Source of the DNA: Aquibaculum arenosum
GTDB lineage: Bacteria; Pseudomonadota; Alphaproteobacteria; Kiloniellales; DSM-21159
Direction of reading: 5' to 3'
Assembly (NCBI RefSeq): GCF_029222965.1
Contig: NZ_JARHUD010000002.1
Span: 124,001 to 188,000 of the forward strand
Length of the DNA stretch: 64,000 bases
A model generated the notes under the pieces. The model had not been told where the DNA came from. It did not search any database and saw only the letters and a program-made list of their open reading frames with translations. This document shows positions 23,620 to 29,163 of this stretch, piece after piece. How positions within the stretch are numbered: position 1 is the first letter of the stretch; each line of letters begins with the position of its first letter. Made by a program: the position numbers and the translations under genes.

Positions 23620-24339
23620 TCAGCCGTAGCGCAGCAGGCGCGGCCCTTCGTGGCGCAGCCAAGCCCGCCCCTCACGGACGTGCGGCGACAGGGCGGCGTT
23701 GAGACGCCAGAACGCCGGGGAGTGATCCATGTGCACCAAGTGGGCCACTTCGTGGGCCACCACATACTCCAGGACCAAGCGTGGCGCGAAGATCAAACGC
23801 CAGGAGAAACTGAGATTGCCGGTCGAAGAACAGCTCCCCCAGCGACTGACTGTATCACGCACCGACACACGGCCGAGGGCCCGCGCTCCTTTGGGCAATG
23901 CCTCTGCCAGCTCGCGGGCTTGTGCGGTCATATGACTTCGCGCTTCGCGGCGCAGATGATCGTGCAGGCGTCGCGACAGATGCTCGGCCTGCCCGCTCAC
24001 GTAGAAGGCTCCCTCTTCCCGCCAGACACCGCCTCTGGCGCGCGGCACATGCCGTATCTCATGAAGGTCACCCAGGAAAGGAATCTGGGTCCCGTGCCCA
24101 AAGGGAACGCGCGGCGGCAGATGGGACAGCCGCGCTCGGACCCACTTCTCCTGGCGCCGGGCGAAGCCCATGCCCTCCTCCGGCTTCACACCGGGCGGCA
24201 AAGTCAGCACCAGGGCTCCCTCCGCCGGCGCCAAGCGCAGCGTGATGCGCCGGGCGCGAGCGGAGCGGCGGAGGCGCAATGGCACCTCAGTGTCCCCCAG
24301 TGTGAGGACAGTGCTTTCGCTTTCCTCCAAAACTCTCAT
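23620..24339 (-). CDS. YgjP-like zinc metallopeptidase (M48/SprT-related)
   Basis: 239 residues. The zinc motif is HEVAHLVHMDHSPAFW near residue 193 (HExxH with the downstream conserved HS.AFW), preceded by the family RWGSCSSTGNLSFSWRL stretch. This is the YgjP/DUF45 metallopeptidase signature. The N-terminal half carries the RARRITLRL beta region typical of the family. The cellular substrate is unknown in the family. Its ATG overlaps the stop of the upstream HAMP protein by 4 bases and regB follows after 58 bases, so it belongs to a four-gene minus-strand unit. Confidence 0.87.
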   Translation of the reverse strand: MRVLEESESTVLTLGDTEVPLRLRRSARARRITLRLAPAEGALVLTLPPGVKPEEGMGFARRQEKWVRARLSHLPPRVPFGHGTQIPFLGDLHEIRHVPRARGGVWREEGAFYVSGQAEHLSRRLHDHLRREARSHMTAQARELAEALPKGARALGRVSVRDTVSRWGSCSSTGNLSFSWRLIFAPRLVLEYVVAHEVAHLVHMDHSPAFWRLNAALSPHVREGRAWLRHEGPRLLRYG

Positions 24340-25163
24340 CCCGGAGTACGCGGACCGCCTTCGACCGGGTCCTCATCCTTCTGCTCCCGCTGGCCCTTCT
24401 CCGCAGAACGGTCCATCTCGAAGCCAAGGTGATCCAGAGCCTGCACCAGGCGCAGGACCACACGCGCGAGGCGCCCGATCTCGTCACGCCGGTCGATCAA
24501 CGACGTGATGCTGGCCGTGTTGAAGCGACCGCTTTCCAAGCGGTCGGCAACGGCTGCCAACCGTCCGATCGGGCGCGCGACCTGACCAGTGAGCACAGCC
24601 GCCGCAATCAACCCCAGCAACACGGAGAGCGCCAAGGCGAGGCTGGCGAAGAGCCACTCGTAGCGGTTGCCGATCACCAGAACTTCTTTCGGTAGACCCA
24701 CGCCCAGCACAAAGTGGGAGTTCCCGCTGCTGTCCACCAGTGGCGCGAAAACATAGAAGGCGTCGGGCAACGTGATCACGTGCAATACGGGTTGCCGAAT
24801 AACTCTCTCAAAGGGCGCTGCCCCGAAGACGGCAAAAGCCCCCTCCTCTTCCAGCCCCGGGGGCGTCAACTCGACAAGCGGCTCGGAATGCTGATTCGCG
24901 ACGGTGACGGCAAGCAAGCGCCCCGTGTCCATGATCTCCTGCGCGCGCTGTCTCAGCAGTTCGATGCCTTCCGGCCCCTCACCGGCCTCGAAGGGGGCGA
25001 AGGCGATGGCATGGGTGATGAGCCGCGCGATGCTGGTTGCCTCATGATGCGCCTCGGCTTCCGCCTGCCGCTGATTCACCAGCATGTAAGCACCGATGGC
25101 TATGGCCGCGGCCGCCAGAGCGATGCTGGTCCCCATGATCCAAAGACGTAGGAAGAGATTCAA
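24336..25163 (-). CDS. Membrane HAMP-domain protein without an output domain
   Basis: 275 residues from a TTG start. TM1 is at about residues 5-29, followed by a periplasmic sensor-like region of about 140 residues, TM2 at about 170-194 and a HAMP linker at about 195-245 (ARPIGRLAAVADRLESG ... RRDEIGRLARVV). The protein ends in a charged tail (EKGQREQKDEDPVEGG). Normally a kinase, cyclase or methyl-accepting domain follows HAMP; none is present here and no frameshift is evident. It overlaps the downstream metallopeptidase, which suggests it senses a signal and passes it to another protein. Function unknown. Confidence 0.8.
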   Translation of the reverse strand: MNLFLRLWIMGTSIALAAAAIAIGAYMLVNQRQAEAEAHHEATSIARLITHAIAFAPFEAGEGPEGIELLRQRAQEIMDTGRLLAVTVANQHSEPLVELTPPGLEEEGAFAVFGAAPFERVIRQPVLHVITLPDAFYVFAPLVDSSGNSHFVLGVGLPKEVLVIGNRYEWLFASLALALSVLLGLIAAAVLTGQVARPIGRLAAVADRLESGRFNTASITSLIDRRDEIGRLARVVLRLVQALDHLGFEMDRSAEKGQREQKDEDPVEGGPRTPG

Positions 25164-25390
25164 TGCCGTGGATCTCGCGACGTCGCAGCAAAAGTTCGAC
25201 GAATCATTGATTGGTTACGCCGCTCGACGGTTGAACATAGGCATGGGCCCGCTTGCGGGTTAATCTTGGAGCCAAGAGTCGTTGACCGCAAGCAAAAGGG
25301 GCAAGGGCCATCGCCACTGTCAGTCCGGTTCGCCGCCCGAGAACCCTAATCTACAGGCGTCGCGACATCCCGCCGGCTGCAACGCTGGCG

Positions 25391-27076
25391 GTGCTCGCCC
25401 TGCAGCATGCCGCTCTTGTGGCGATCTTCCTGATCGTCGCCGTAACGGTTGCACGCATGGCGGGTCTTGATGCGGAATCGGGGCGGAATTTTCTCGCGCT
25501 GACCATGGTGGCCGGTGGGCTGGGCGCCATCCTGCAGGCGCTGGCTTGGCGCGGCATGGGTTCCGGTTACCTCGTACCCCCCACCACCACGACCATCTTC
25601 CTGCCGGCAGCAGGCAGCGCTCTGGCAGCAGGTGGATTGCCCCTGCTGTTTGGCATGATGGTCTACAGTGGCCTGGTGACCGCGGTCCTGTCGCGCTTCA
25701 TCCATCGCCTGCGCCCCATCTTTCCCGCGGAAATCGCTGGCTTCGTGGTGCTGATGGTGGGACTCAGCGTGGTGGTCCTCGCCATGCGGAACTTTCTGGG
25801 GGTCGGCCTGCCCCACGGGGACGCAAGCAGCAGCGTCCTTATCGCCGGCTTCGCCCTCACCTGCATGGTCGCGCTGAACGTCTGGGGATCAGCACAGTTG
25901 CGGCTCTACAGTTCTCTCCTGGGAGTGGGCATTGGCTGCATAGCCGCTTTGGTCGCGGGCGGTTTCGGCCATCGCGAACTGGCCGCGGTCGGTGAGGCGC
26001 CCTGGATCGCTCTGCCGCGCCCCTTTACGATGGGCCTAGCGTTCGATGCCGCCTTGCTTGTGCCTTTTACCATTGCTGCACTGGCCATCGCACTCAATGC
26101 GCTTGGTGCAATAACCGCGGCCCAAAAAGTGGAGGATGCCGACTGGAAGCGTCCTGAGATGGGATCGCTTGGCCGCGGCATCATGGCCGATGGCACCACG
26201 AACGTGGTTGCGGGCCTGCTCGGCGGCTTCGGGCAGGCTTCCACTTCGGGCGCTGTCGGTCTTTCAGAAGCAACCGGCGCCAACAGCCGCGTGATCGCTT
26301 TCGTGCTCGGCGGCCTGCTGATCCTCGTGGCCTTCCTGCCGAAGATCGGCGCCTTTCTCTTGGCCATGCCTGCGCCGGTGGTGGGCGCTGCCCTGACCTT
26401 CTCCGGCTGCTTCCTCATCACCTCCGCCATCCAGATGATCGCCTCGCGCATGCTGGATGCGCGCAAGACCTTCGTGCTGGGCATCGCCTTCTCGCTGGGT
26501 GTGGCGGCCTTCGTTTTCCCGGAGCACTTCGAGGGCGCGCCCGACTGGCTGCAGCCCTGGGTCGGTTCACCACTGTCGATCTCGGTAGCAACGGCCGTGC
26601 TGCTGAATCTCATTTTCCGCTTCGGCGTCTTTCAGCGCAACGCCATCACTCTGGACAGCCACAGCATTGACCAGCGCCAGCTTGCGGAGTTCATCGCCAG
26701 CCAAGGCGCCCTCTGGGGTGCACCCCAGGATCTGGTCTATCGGACCGAGTTCATGACCATCGAGGCCATCGACGCCCTGGTGGACCATGGCTTGGTGCAG
26801 GATGCGGTGAAGGTCAGCCGGCAACAACCGCCGGTCTCGATCCCCGGCGGGCTGATCGGCCTGTCGACCCGCTTTGACGAATTCAGCCTGCAGGTCACCA
26901 TCACCTATCGCGGCGTCCTATTGGAGCCGAGCGACAAGCGCCCCAGTTCCGAAGAGGTCTTGGAAGAGGATGGTCAGCTTCGGCTTGCCCGCTACATGGT
27001 CGGCCGCGCCGCTGACCGCGCCAAGGCCGAGCGCCAGGGTGATCTCTGCGTTCTCACCCTCACGCTCCAGAATTAG
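25391..27076 (+). CDS. NCS2-family (xanthine/uracil) permease with C-terminal GHKL-like domain; 5' end uncertain
   Basis: 561 residues from GTG 25391, the first standard start in frame. About 12 membrane segments with NCS2 landmarks: LQHAALVA in TM1 and the SGAVGLSEATGANSR loop. Residues from about 425 to the end are soluble and resemble a degenerate RsbW-type ATPase domain (see findings). Family proteins normally begin 20-30 residues earlier, and the same frame does continue upstream in a family-like way (RRPRTLIYRRRDIPPAATL) to a stop at 25283, but without ATG, GTG or TTG. A TTG at 25282 with GGAG ten bases upstream lies in another frame, separated by an AAAAGGGG run (25294-25301). The gene may therefore be frameshifted, use a rare start, or contain a sequence error. 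Substrate unknown. Confidence 0.8.
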   Translation: MLALQHAALVAIFLIVAVTVARMAGLDAESGRNFLALTMVAGGLGAILQALAWRGMGSGYLVPPTTTTIFLPAAGSALAAGGLPLLFGMMVYSGLVTAVLSRFIHRLRPIFPAEIAGFVVLMVGLSVVVLAMRNFLGVGLPHGDASSSVLIAGFALTCMVALNVWGSAQLRLYSSLLGVGIGCIAALVAGGFGHRELAAVGEAPWIALPRPFTMGLAFDAALLVPFTIAALAIALNALGAITAAQKVEDADWKRPEMGSLGRGIMADGTTNVVAGLLGGFGQASTSGAVGLSEATGANSRVIAFVLGGLLILVAFLPKIGAFLLAMPAPVVGAALTFSGCFLITSAIQMIASRMLDARKTFVLGIAFSLGVAAFVFPEHFEGAPDWLQPWVGSPLSISVATAVLLNLIFRFGVFQRNAITLDSHSIDQRQLAEFIASQGALWGAPQDLVYRTEFMTIEAIDALVDHGLVQDAVKVSRQQPPVSIPGGLIGLSTRFDEFSLQVTITYRGVLLEPSDKRPSSEEVLEEDGQLRLARYMVGRAADRAKAERQGDLCVLTLTLQN

Positions 27077-27130
27077 GGCCGGGCCCCGCGATCGGCACCG
27101 CTTCACGCTACGACTGGGAGCGCGCCCGGC

Positions 27131-28846
27131 TCAATGCTCAAAGTGCAGCGTCAGCCTCTGGCTCTCGCCCTCGCTTCTCTGAGTCATGCGGTCCGCATAG
27201 CGTCTTATGAGAAACCCGGCGAGACGCGCGAAGCTTTGATCGTCGTCCATGATCGCATCAAAATCCGGGCGCTCCGCTGGCGTCTCGAGCGGCCGACCAC
27301 GCCAGCGAAAGACGACATCGAGATTGAACTCATCAAAGCGGGCGCCGAGTTCGATTTCGTGCTCGGCCAGCCCGTGCTCGCGCAAGGTTTCCAGCGTTTC
27401 AGCCGCCGCATGTGCCGCCCGCCCGATAACCTCTCGCCGCGCCCCCCAAATGTCGCCCTGTCGTCCCAGGAACGACTGCGCAAACTCATAGGCATCGACC
27501 TGCATCGGAACGGGAAGTGAAGCCTGTTGCGCGATGCCGATCCTAAACAAGAGGTTGAGGCCAATGGCAGCGAGCGCTGCGACAGCCAGTTCCGAGCGGA
27601 ACAGTGGCGCCAGCCAGGGCGGCAGATTGTCGTAGACCCCGGGCAGCAAAACGACGCTGAGCCCAAGCAAGATGGAGAGCCCCACGGTGAAGATGCGCCG
27701 CTCGCTCAGCATGCGTGACAGGATCAAGTCCATGCCGGAAACCATCATGTAGGCAGAGGTATAGACCATGATCGCACCAATCACCGGCGGCGGTATCAGC
27801 GCCAGGGCCGTCACCACCTTCGGCATGAAGACCGCAAGCAGTAAGAGGATGCCAGCGGCAAGCGCGATCACCCGGGAGGTTGCACCACTGGCAAAAGACA
27901 GGCCTACGTGGGCCGAAGAGACACCCATGGCGCTGCCGCCCAGCGCGCCCGCTGACATGTTACCCACCGCATTGGCCTGAAGTCCGCCGCTGGCGCTTCG
28001 CAGGTGCATTCGTTTCCAGTCAGCATCATTCAAGCGCTGTATGCTGACCAGAACACCAAGGTTGTCGACACTGTTAACGATCGCCATGAGCGCGAAGAGC
28101 GGAAGCAAGACCAACTCGAACTTCCAGGTGGGCAAAGCCAAGCTCGGCAAGCCCAGAATTGATGCCGCGGCCAATCTTTCGCTAGCCATCGGCTCAAAAA
28201 GGCCGAGGAGCAGGCAGAGTCCCGTTCCGACCAGAAGGCCAAAGACGAGGGCAAAGAGCTTCAGAGCACCGCGGCCGAAGATCGCCACCAGCACCATGGT
28301 CGCGAGCGTTGCCCCTGCTACCGCCAAATGCTGATGATCAACGCTGGTTCGGTGCAACGGCTCGAGGGTCCCGCCTGTGAAGCGGATGAGCGCGGGACTG
28401 GCCAATGACACCCCCAGCATGAACACCACGACGCCACAAACCTCGGGGGGAAGCAGGCGGCGCAGGCGATGCAAAATGCGCGCCAAACCGGACTCCAGCA
28501 GACCAAGGATGAAGGTCATGCTGGCAATTAAGCCAACGCCGCCGATGGACCCAGCTTGGATCATTGCCGGGAGCATGACCGGCGTTGGGATAAGCACCGC
28601 GAGTTCACCGCTGCCCATGGGAGGCTGCCTGGACTGCAGCAAGGTCGCAATGGCGATGGCAAGCAGGCTGGAAGCCAGAAGTCCGCTGGTTTCCGCAGAG
28701 GTGAGGCCAAGCTCCTGCGCGACCACCACAGGGTAGATCATGAACATGATCGCGAGACCTGCGTGCTGAAGGCCCAGCACGAGCAATGTCGGCGCGGGCG
28801 GCCGTTCCTCCACTGCGTAACTCAGCCAAGTGGGCCTACGTGCCAA
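27131..28846 (-). CDS. NCS2-family (xanthine/uracil) permease with C-terminal GHKL-like domain
   Basis: 571 residues from TTG 28846, which gives the family start ARRPTWLSYAVEERPPAPT; the open frame runs further upstream but that part is unlike the family. The membrane part has LGLQHAGLAIMF in TM1 and the GVSSAHVGLSFASGATSR substrate loop. Residues from about 440 onward are a soluble domain that matches the one in the convergent paralog: a conserved Trp-Gly, an EHG or DHG turn, ARFDEFNLDV, then a RRYADR helix and a final LTLHF strand. NCS2 carriers import purines, pyrimidines or ascorbate-like compounds with protons or sodium. The tail is not part of ordinary NCS2 proteins. Confidence 0.85.
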   Translation of the reverse strand: MARRPTWLSYAVEERPPAPTLLVLGLQHAGLAIMFMIYPVVVAQELGLTSAETSGLLASSLLAIAIATLLQSRQPPMGSGELAVLIPTPVMLPAMIQAGSIGGVGLIASMTFILGLLESGLARILHRLRRLLPPEVCGVVVFMLGVSLASPALIRFTGGTLEPLHRTSVDHQHLAVAGATLATMVLVAIFGRGALKLFALVFGLLVGTGLCLLLGLFEPMASERLAAASILGLPSLALPTWKFELVLLPLFALMAIVNSVDNLGVLVSIQRLNDADWKRMHLRSASGGLQANAVGNMSAGALGGSAMGVSSAHVGLSFASGATSRVIALAAGILLLLAVFMPKVVTALALIPPPVIGAIMVYTSAYMMVSGMDLILSRMLSERRIFTVGLSILLGLSVVLLPGVYDNLPPWLAPLFRSELAVAALAAIGLNLLFRIGIAQQASLPVPMQVDAYEFAQSFLGRQGDIWGARREVIGRAAHAAAETLETLREHGLAEHEIELGARFDEFNLDVVFRWRGRPLETPAERPDFDAIMDDDQSFARLAGFLIRRYADRMTQRSEGESQRLTLHFEH

Positions 28847-29163
28847 GTATCTGTAGTTCCTAAGTTTTTGACTTCTGGCAGCCACATCCGACCGAATGGG
28901 CGCTTTTATAATGCATAATCCAGCGGCGGATTGTGAACGCTTTTCTGGGCTTGGTTTGCCCTCTCTGGGGCCGTCCTCACACTCATCGACCGCCCGCATT
29001 GCCTTTCCGGTTGCCGTGAGCACGCGGCTCTGAAACCATAATCAGGAAAGAGTGGCTGCCCGGATGCGCGAGCGGGCCACTGCCGCCCCAGCGCGCCTCC
29101 CGGCCTGCGGCTCGGTGACGAGACCCGTGACGTAGAGGCACGAGCACAAAAGGGGAGGACAAA
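28847..29163. other. Divergent intergenic region between NCS2 permease and EF-G-like gene
   Basis: 317 bases with no convincing gene. The permease side is A+T-rich for this genome (around 28860-28920) and contains TATAAA on the minus strand at 28905-28910, without a good -35. Toward the EF-G-like gene there is CATAAT at 29037-29042, also without a well-spaced -35. I see a short hairpin-prone stretch at about 29050-29081 (AGTGG...CCACT). No riboswitch or small RNA is recognisable. Confidence 0.5.

Follow-up and report, generated by a model that had tools for sequence, protein, structure and literature searches.

Why should two adjacent membrane carriers each end in a soluble domain resembling an anti-sigma kinase? 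The question is raised by a 64 kb stretch of the Aquibaculum arenosum genome (contig NZ_JARHUD010000002.1, positions 124,001 to 188,000), here called the window, in which two convergent genes encode carriers of the NCS2 clade, carrier A and carrier B. An initial annotation of this DNA had read both tails as a degenerate GHKL/RsbW-like domain and the proteins as transceptors, carriers that report substrate flux by binding a partner protein. The analysis described here supports the first assignment and leads to a different account of the second. It appears fairly probable that these are carriers with an ATP-dead RsbW-like tail that binds a dephosphorylated RsbV-like protein, coupling transport to a partner switch.

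The tails are predicted to fold like anti-sigma kinases

Carriers A and B align over their entire length (32% identity, 567 columns), Pfam and NCBIfam agree on the NCS2 placement of both membrane domains, and by this alignment the two proteins are paralogues, each with a tail. The soluble C-terminal tails, of about 135 residues, match one another with 40/138 identities (29%), 70/138 positives and an E-value of 5e-20 in a single-pair comparison. The interval 26655-27527, in which the initial annotation had located the matching domains, covers the tails of both convergent carriers, and the motifs it had listed (WG, IEAIDALVDHG in one tail and AETLETLREHG in the other, RFDEF, ADR and a last LTL strand) are present in the sequence. 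Since the entire proteins are paralogous, the likeness of the tails is expected from common descent; a chance resemblance was considered and rejected, as the paralogy spans the whole of both proteins.

The AlphaFold2 model of tail B, obtained from a 68-sequence alignment, has a predicted local distance difference test score (pLDDT) of 91.2 and a predicted template modelling score (pTM) of 0.84, with its elements in the order strand-helix-helix-strand-strand-short helix-helix-strand-strand. Compared by Foldseek with the PDB, this model finds SpoIIAB, UsfX and RsbW entries on top (best E 1.8e-6). Similarly, the top ten of a VIA-align ranking consists of anti-sigma kinases throughout (Z 12.7-14.1; UsfX 14.1, SpoIIAB 13.4 and RsbW 13.2), followed by LvrC (11.7), the SiaB-SiaC chain (10.4) and histidine kinase domains (at most 8.8). 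The structural comparison of the tail alone that the initial annotation had suggested, here run on tail B, thus places anti-sigma kinases closest, with no STAS fold among the ten best. In the full-length AlphaFold2 model of carrier A (25340-27073, 53 sequences, pLDDT 91.0, pTM 0.87) the tail, residues 432-577, displays the same order of elements as tail B and, following the N-box helix, a low-confidence insertion.

Compared by hhalign with 34 RsbW-like domains encoded at the same loci, the 68 tails align end to end over 127 columns with a probability of 97.4 and an E-value of 1.3e-11. The sole Pfam family that recurs among the tails is HATPase_c_2 (16/68 at E <= 1, best E 2.6e-4), the runner-up families being matched by 2/68 each; the four individual HATPase_c_2 matches with a recorded bit score lie under the curated cut-off. 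Taken alone, the window tails A and B give no HATPase_c_2 match in Pfam and nothing useful in NCBIfam, and the tail profile run against PDB sequences yields one match only, a glucosidase at E 0.29. As these direct sequence matches are weak, the link of the tail to its family rests on the fold, the profile-profile comparison and the matches of relatives. Predicted fold, profile-profile comparison, HATPase_c_2 matches and the systematic loss of ATP-binding residues described below together support the view that the tail belongs, as a degenerate GHKL domain, to the RsbW/SpoIIAB family of anti-sigma kinases, in line with the initial annotation.

The ATP site of the tail has lost its key residues

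In the aligned ATP-site columns the N-box Asn is found in 0/68 tails and in 34/34 neighbouring RsbW domains, the G1 Asp in 0/68 tails (Tyr in 61) against 33/34, and the last Gly of the G2 box in 2/68 against 34/34. At the position of the catalytic Glu, 45 of the 68 tails have Glu and the other 23 have Gln. The G1 and G2 glycines had been described as missing. For the last G2 Gly this is correct (lost in 66/68), but the G1 Gly is kept in 67/68 tails, and the G1 Asp and N-box Asn have been lost instead. Because the N-box Asn, the G1 Asp and the last G2 Gly are gone, the tail is predicted to be a pseudokinase, and on its residues it cannot be a normal kinase. It displays a signature of its own, made of WG (68/68), Arg (67/68), a Phe/Tyr-Asp-Glu motif whose Glu (E78) is present in 68/68, and Tyr-x-Gly.

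The tail marks one NCS2 group with an altered substrate site

Tailed loci were located in one scan of named genomes, using patterns drawn from the tail and from the final membrane helix. The 79 obtained, from the best 80 of 132 relatives, are distributed over Pseudomonadota (51), Bacillota (15), Acidobacteriota (3), two archaeal metagenome-assembled genomes (MAGs) and others. Whether the tail always goes with an NCS2 carrier, a question posed at the outset, is addressed by the 165/165 tail-matching frames of at least 100 residues in the collected loci, near-copies included, that also match NCS2. A FastTree phylogeny of the membrane domain only (160/163 rows, three partial rows excluded; unrooted, with some long branches) separates 110 tailed rows, near-copies among them, 13 rows with a second kind of tail (type II) and 37 tail-less rows by well supported branches (99-100); in this tree the tail is restricted to one NCS2 group. 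Within it, carrier B clusters with an Armatimonadota carrier (L084) whose STAS gene lies at 24 bp, and carrier A is found in a different part of the tailed group, beside its same-genus orthologue. The type II rows represent another NCS2 group, whose RsbW-like tail has diverged, observed at L002:955-2832, L115-L118, L120-L123, L128-L130, L146 and L241. Of the five NCS2 places in the host genome, two are carriers A and B; a third (L003) bears the same kind of tail, a fourth (L002) the more diverged tail and the fifth (L001) no tail. In a class sample of 385 genomes, at least 23 have a match, one of them (G098) in the membrane helix only; at most nine candidates were scored per genome, so the number of tailed genomes is a lower bound.

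The membrane domain in the carrier A model (residues 2-432) closely resembles UapA (Z 40.1) and UraA (Z 40.0) and, at a lower score, SLC26Dg (Z 32.5). Two residues of this fold, which we take to be substrate-binding in NCS2 carriers, are a Glu in transmembrane helix 8 (TM8) and a Gln or Glu at the first position of the NAT motif, and an alignment with UapA confirms that the TM8 and NAT-motif positions coincide with those scored. The TM8 Glu is present in 37/37 tail-less rows and in 1/110 tailed rows, and the NAT-motif Gln/Glu in 35/37 and 0/110, respectively. The TM8 site of the 110 tailed rows is occupied mostly by Lys (41), Asp (26), Arg (24) and Asn (8), with Lys and Arg together in 65; in the window it is Asn in carrier A and Asp in carrier B. 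The type II group retains the TM8 Glu in 7/13. Since the canonical TM8 Glu and NAT-motif Gln/Glu are gone, it is unlikely that the tailed carriers have as substrate a nucleobase that binds in the customary manner, and the numerous Lys and Arg at the TM8 site would fit an anion.

Tailed carriers are often linked to genes of the partner switch

Profiles for RsbW, STAS and SpoIIE/PP2C proteins took three of the counted loci (L038, L045, L053) as seeds and were then extended over the counted set itself, several of their matches being confirmed by Pfam. A STAS, RsbW or PP2C gene, collectively termed rsb genes, lies within 300 bp of the tailed carrier in 36/79 loci and within 5 kb in 41/79, flank lengths being variable and several loci, as well as controls L202, L205, L214, L216 and L219, ending at contig edges. 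By kind, the genes found within 5 kb are STAS in 40/79, RsbW in 29/79 and PP2C in 27/79 loci, with all three in 22/79; STAS is the sole linked kind in 7 loci and RsbW in none. In contrast, 0/40 tail-less NCS2 loci from these genomes, a selection guided by frame length and score among those that a PF00860 search of 34 genomes listed, have an rsb gene in the roughly 5 kb on either side (P 4e-10 for 41/79 against 0/40). A smaller control of tail-less NCS2 loci with 1.5 kb flanks likewise contains zero rsb genes.

Fodinicurvata (L074, L133) displays the order RsbW-STAS-NCS2-NCS2-...-PP2C and another locus (L234) the order PP2C-RsbW-STAS-NCS2, while in L241 a PP2C.RsbW fusion, a STAS gene and a type II-tailed carrier form one cluster. 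Of 67 rows scored for linkage on the tree, 44 are linked, and the state must have switched at least 9 times among them. RsbW phosphorylates a serine in the Ser-Ser motif of its canonical STAS partner, and a Ser-Ser-x-Gly motif is kept in most STAS matches, the pattern failing in 6/46, one of these partial. Three of the four RsbU-like proteins scanned with Pfam (L038, L131 and L241, not L074) contain receiver, HAMP or sensor domains. Among 123 neighbour open reading frames (ORFs) from 24/41 linked loci, no sigma-factor family occurs twice in the 25 families listed, although a single occurrence is possible. Thus, of the neighbours that the initial annotation had proposed to look for, an anti-anti-sigma (STAS) or PP2C gene, or else an RsbW gene, does lie within 5 kb in the 41 loci, whereas a recurrent sigma family does not appear among the neighbour families listed.

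Two further features of these clusters were observed. In three MAG contigs (L047, L048, L065) a STAS gene, a tailed NCS2 gene and the gene of a HAMP-containing Hanks-type Ser/Thr kinase adjoin one another. Downstream of two rsb-NCS2 clusters (L045:10159-16180 and L038:9716-14999), runs of ABC_sub_bind-like periplasmic proteins were seen by eye; ABC_sub_bind accounts for 5/123 of the neighbour ORFs.

RsbV-like proteins co-occur with the tail in trans

In the host genome, contig C23 (L131:3431-13296) carries an RsbW-STAS pair and an RsbU-like PP2C gene, with no NCS2 gene, and a PP2C match is found about 18 kb from the third tailed carrier, on contig C25. Between the RsbW-STAS pair and the PP2C gene of C23 lie genes for membrane sensor-like proteins and for an MFS-like protein whose N-terminus resembles a sensor.

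In the class sample, an RsbV-like STAS match with E <= 1e-30 is present in 20/22 tailed genomes, eight of them with type II only, and in 21/363 others, a comparison made by hand tallies with a limit that was set after the table had been viewed and with genome kinship ignored. One genome (G318) sits on the E limit and G098 is excluded for its membrane-helix match; including the latter, the count is 20/23. At E <= 1e-10 the figures are 21/23 tailed genomes against 98/362 others.

A proposed mechanism and its alternatives

In the proposed mechanism the tail would be cytoplasmic and would retain the ability of the RsbW family to bind the STAS protein RsbV, without phosphorylating it. The RsbU phosphatase and the true RsbW kinase would set the level of dephosphorylated RsbV, the tail would read its amount, and RsbV docking would alter transporter activity, making the carrier the output of the switch. 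For the host organism this would mean a partner supplied in trans by the RsbW-RsbV-RsbU cluster of the other contig. Gene context and co-occurrence both agree with the binding of a partner protein put forward in the initial annotation, a binding that we infer. A broader proposal, that the whole NCS2-fold group with the altered substrate site is a direct output of RsbU-RsbV-RsbW switches and that docked dephosphorylated RsbV gates transport, the switch then controlling a transporter in place of a sigma factor, is offered tentatively, as an idea that may well prove wrong.

Several observations weigh against this mechanism. Searched with the RsbW, STAS and PP2C profiles at E 1e-4, the 64 kb window has no match, and the flanks of the host genome's four tailed carriers, when read, contain no rsb gene. 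No rsb gene lies within 5 kb in 38/79 tailed loci, nor in 17/20 flanks of the class sample, and linkage in Bacillota is limited to 2/15 loci. In addition, 21 class-sample genomes without a detected tail carry a strong RsbV-like match, from which it follows that RsbV does not require the tail. The adjacency itself may reflect shared regulation alone.

The direction of signalling may also be the reverse of that proposed, with the carrier as transceptor: substrate occupancy or flux would change the affinity of the tail for RsbV (or RsbW), and the carrier would be the input of a switch controlling a sigma factor or another target. The fold and the gene context are also compatible with this reading, and some members may be receptors, the canonical substrate residues having been lost (TM8 Glu in one and NAT-motif Gln/Glu in none of the 110 tailed rows). 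Against it, sensor or receiver domains are already carried by three of the four scanned RsbU-like proteins, the 123 neighbour ORFs include no recurrent downstream output gene, and control of the carrier by the switch suits the gene context at least as well. We regard the transceptor as possible but rather unlikely. We consider a carrier that is the output of the switch more likely than one that reports its substrate to the switch, because receiver, HAMP or sensor domains are already part of most scanned RsbU-like proteins and no recurrent sigma factor was seen close by.

RsbW-family proteins are dimers and pseudokinases are often allosteric partners, and the tail might be a pseudokinase subunit that pairs with a true RsbW, tuning the kinase or anchoring it at the membrane. 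The RsbW genes within 5 kb of 29 loci would suit such pairing, which is nevertheless improbable: STAS genes are linked oftener, in 40 loci, and stand alone in 7, while RsbW never does. An equally low probability is given to a tail that is a structural or stability module, required for folding or dimerisation, or a fusion fossil with no present signalling role whose adjacency to rsb genes is inherited. The 38 unlinked loci, and the window with them, would fit a module of this kind. It accords poorly with a tail signature conserved across phyla (WG and E78 each in 68/68), with a linkage that changes at least nine times among the 67 rows while the tail persists, and with the co-occurrence of RsbV in trans. 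Finally, the idea that the tail has some other, unrelated alpha/beta fold, or is a STAS domain like the one at the C-terminus of SLC26/SulP carriers, whose membrane fold is shared (SLC26Dg Z 32.5), is rejected as scarcely credible, the ten best structures all being anti-sigma kinases and the Pfam scan of the 68 tails giving HATPase_c_2 and no match to STAS.

Relation to known partner switches and carriers

The tail shares its predicted fold and profile homology with RsbW, SpoIIAB and UsfX, and RsbV- and RsbU-like genes often stand alongside it. It differs from them in being fused to a transporter, in the loss of ATP-site residues and in having no recurrent sigma factor beside it. With UraA and UapA (NCS2/NAT, SLC23) the tailed carriers share the membrane fold (Z 40) and the Pfam family Xan_ur_permease, but the tailed group is without the TM8 Glu and NAT-motif Gln/Glu and has an extra C-terminal domain. 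CbrA also joins a carrier domain to a GHKL-type module, there an active histidine kinase; here the module would be ATP-dead and RsbW-like. The SLC26/SulP carriers have a membrane fold in common with the tailed NCS2 carriers, and both end in a module of the partner switch, SLC26/SulP carrying the STAS (RsbV-like) half and tailed NCS2 the RsbW-like half. Under the broader proposal, SLC26 and SLC23 carriers would each have acquired one complementary half (STAS, RsbW) of one switch. Tailed carriers as targets would take partner switching beyond transcription to the control of transport.

According to the review PMC8256260, STAS-tailed SLC26 carriers, Rsb partner switches and RsbV-like proteins that lack a known target have already been described, and the non-canonical switches of Gram-negative bacteria, SypA, BtrUVW and RbaVW, comprise a STAS protein and a kinase/phosphatase with targets that are not a plain sigma factor or are unknown. 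Set against these systems, the transporter with an RsbW-like tail in the cluster is a candidate target, and tailed carriers would thus offer a concrete candidate for Gram-negative RsbV-like STAS proteins, several of which have unknown targets in the same source. No description of an RsbW-like domain on an NCS2 carrier was found in the literature searched, most subscription papers lying outside it, nor in passages of PMC8256260, PMC11362169 and PMC2700814.

The carrier pair in the window and its neighbour

Features of the carrier pair and the adjacent membrane protein gene, in window coordinates
Feature	Position	Strand	Basis
Carrier A, NCS2-clade	25391..27076	+	ORF; Pfam Xan_ur_permease E 1.4e-44
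Tail A, predicted RsbW-like pseudokinase domain	26633..27076	+	Residues 432-577 of the full-length model; match to tail B
Carrier B, NCS2-clade, convergent paralogue of carrier A	27131..29023	-	ORF; Xan_ur_permease E 6.2e-41
Tail B, predicted RsbW-like pseudokinase domain	27131..27529	-	AlphaFold2 model; structure matches
HAMP membrane protein, divergent from carrier A	24336..25163	-	HAMP E 3.4e-08

The HAMP membrane protein gives no further Pfam match at 0.01, and no output domain was recognised in it. Its kinship with the membrane proteins beside the tailed carriers of L047, L048 and L065 was considered and rejected, as those are Hanks-type kinases and the small likeness is confined to the surroundings of HAMP.

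The earliest ATG, GTG or TTG of carrier A is the GTG at 25391, yet the N-terminus of the family extends upstream to about 25310-25340. An in-frame ATC is found at 25310, 8 nt 3' of AAGGGG, and a non-standard start codon is possible for carrier A. In the same-genus orthologue (L019) the position of this ATC is occupied by ATA, after AAGGGGG, and a TTG is present further upstream as well.

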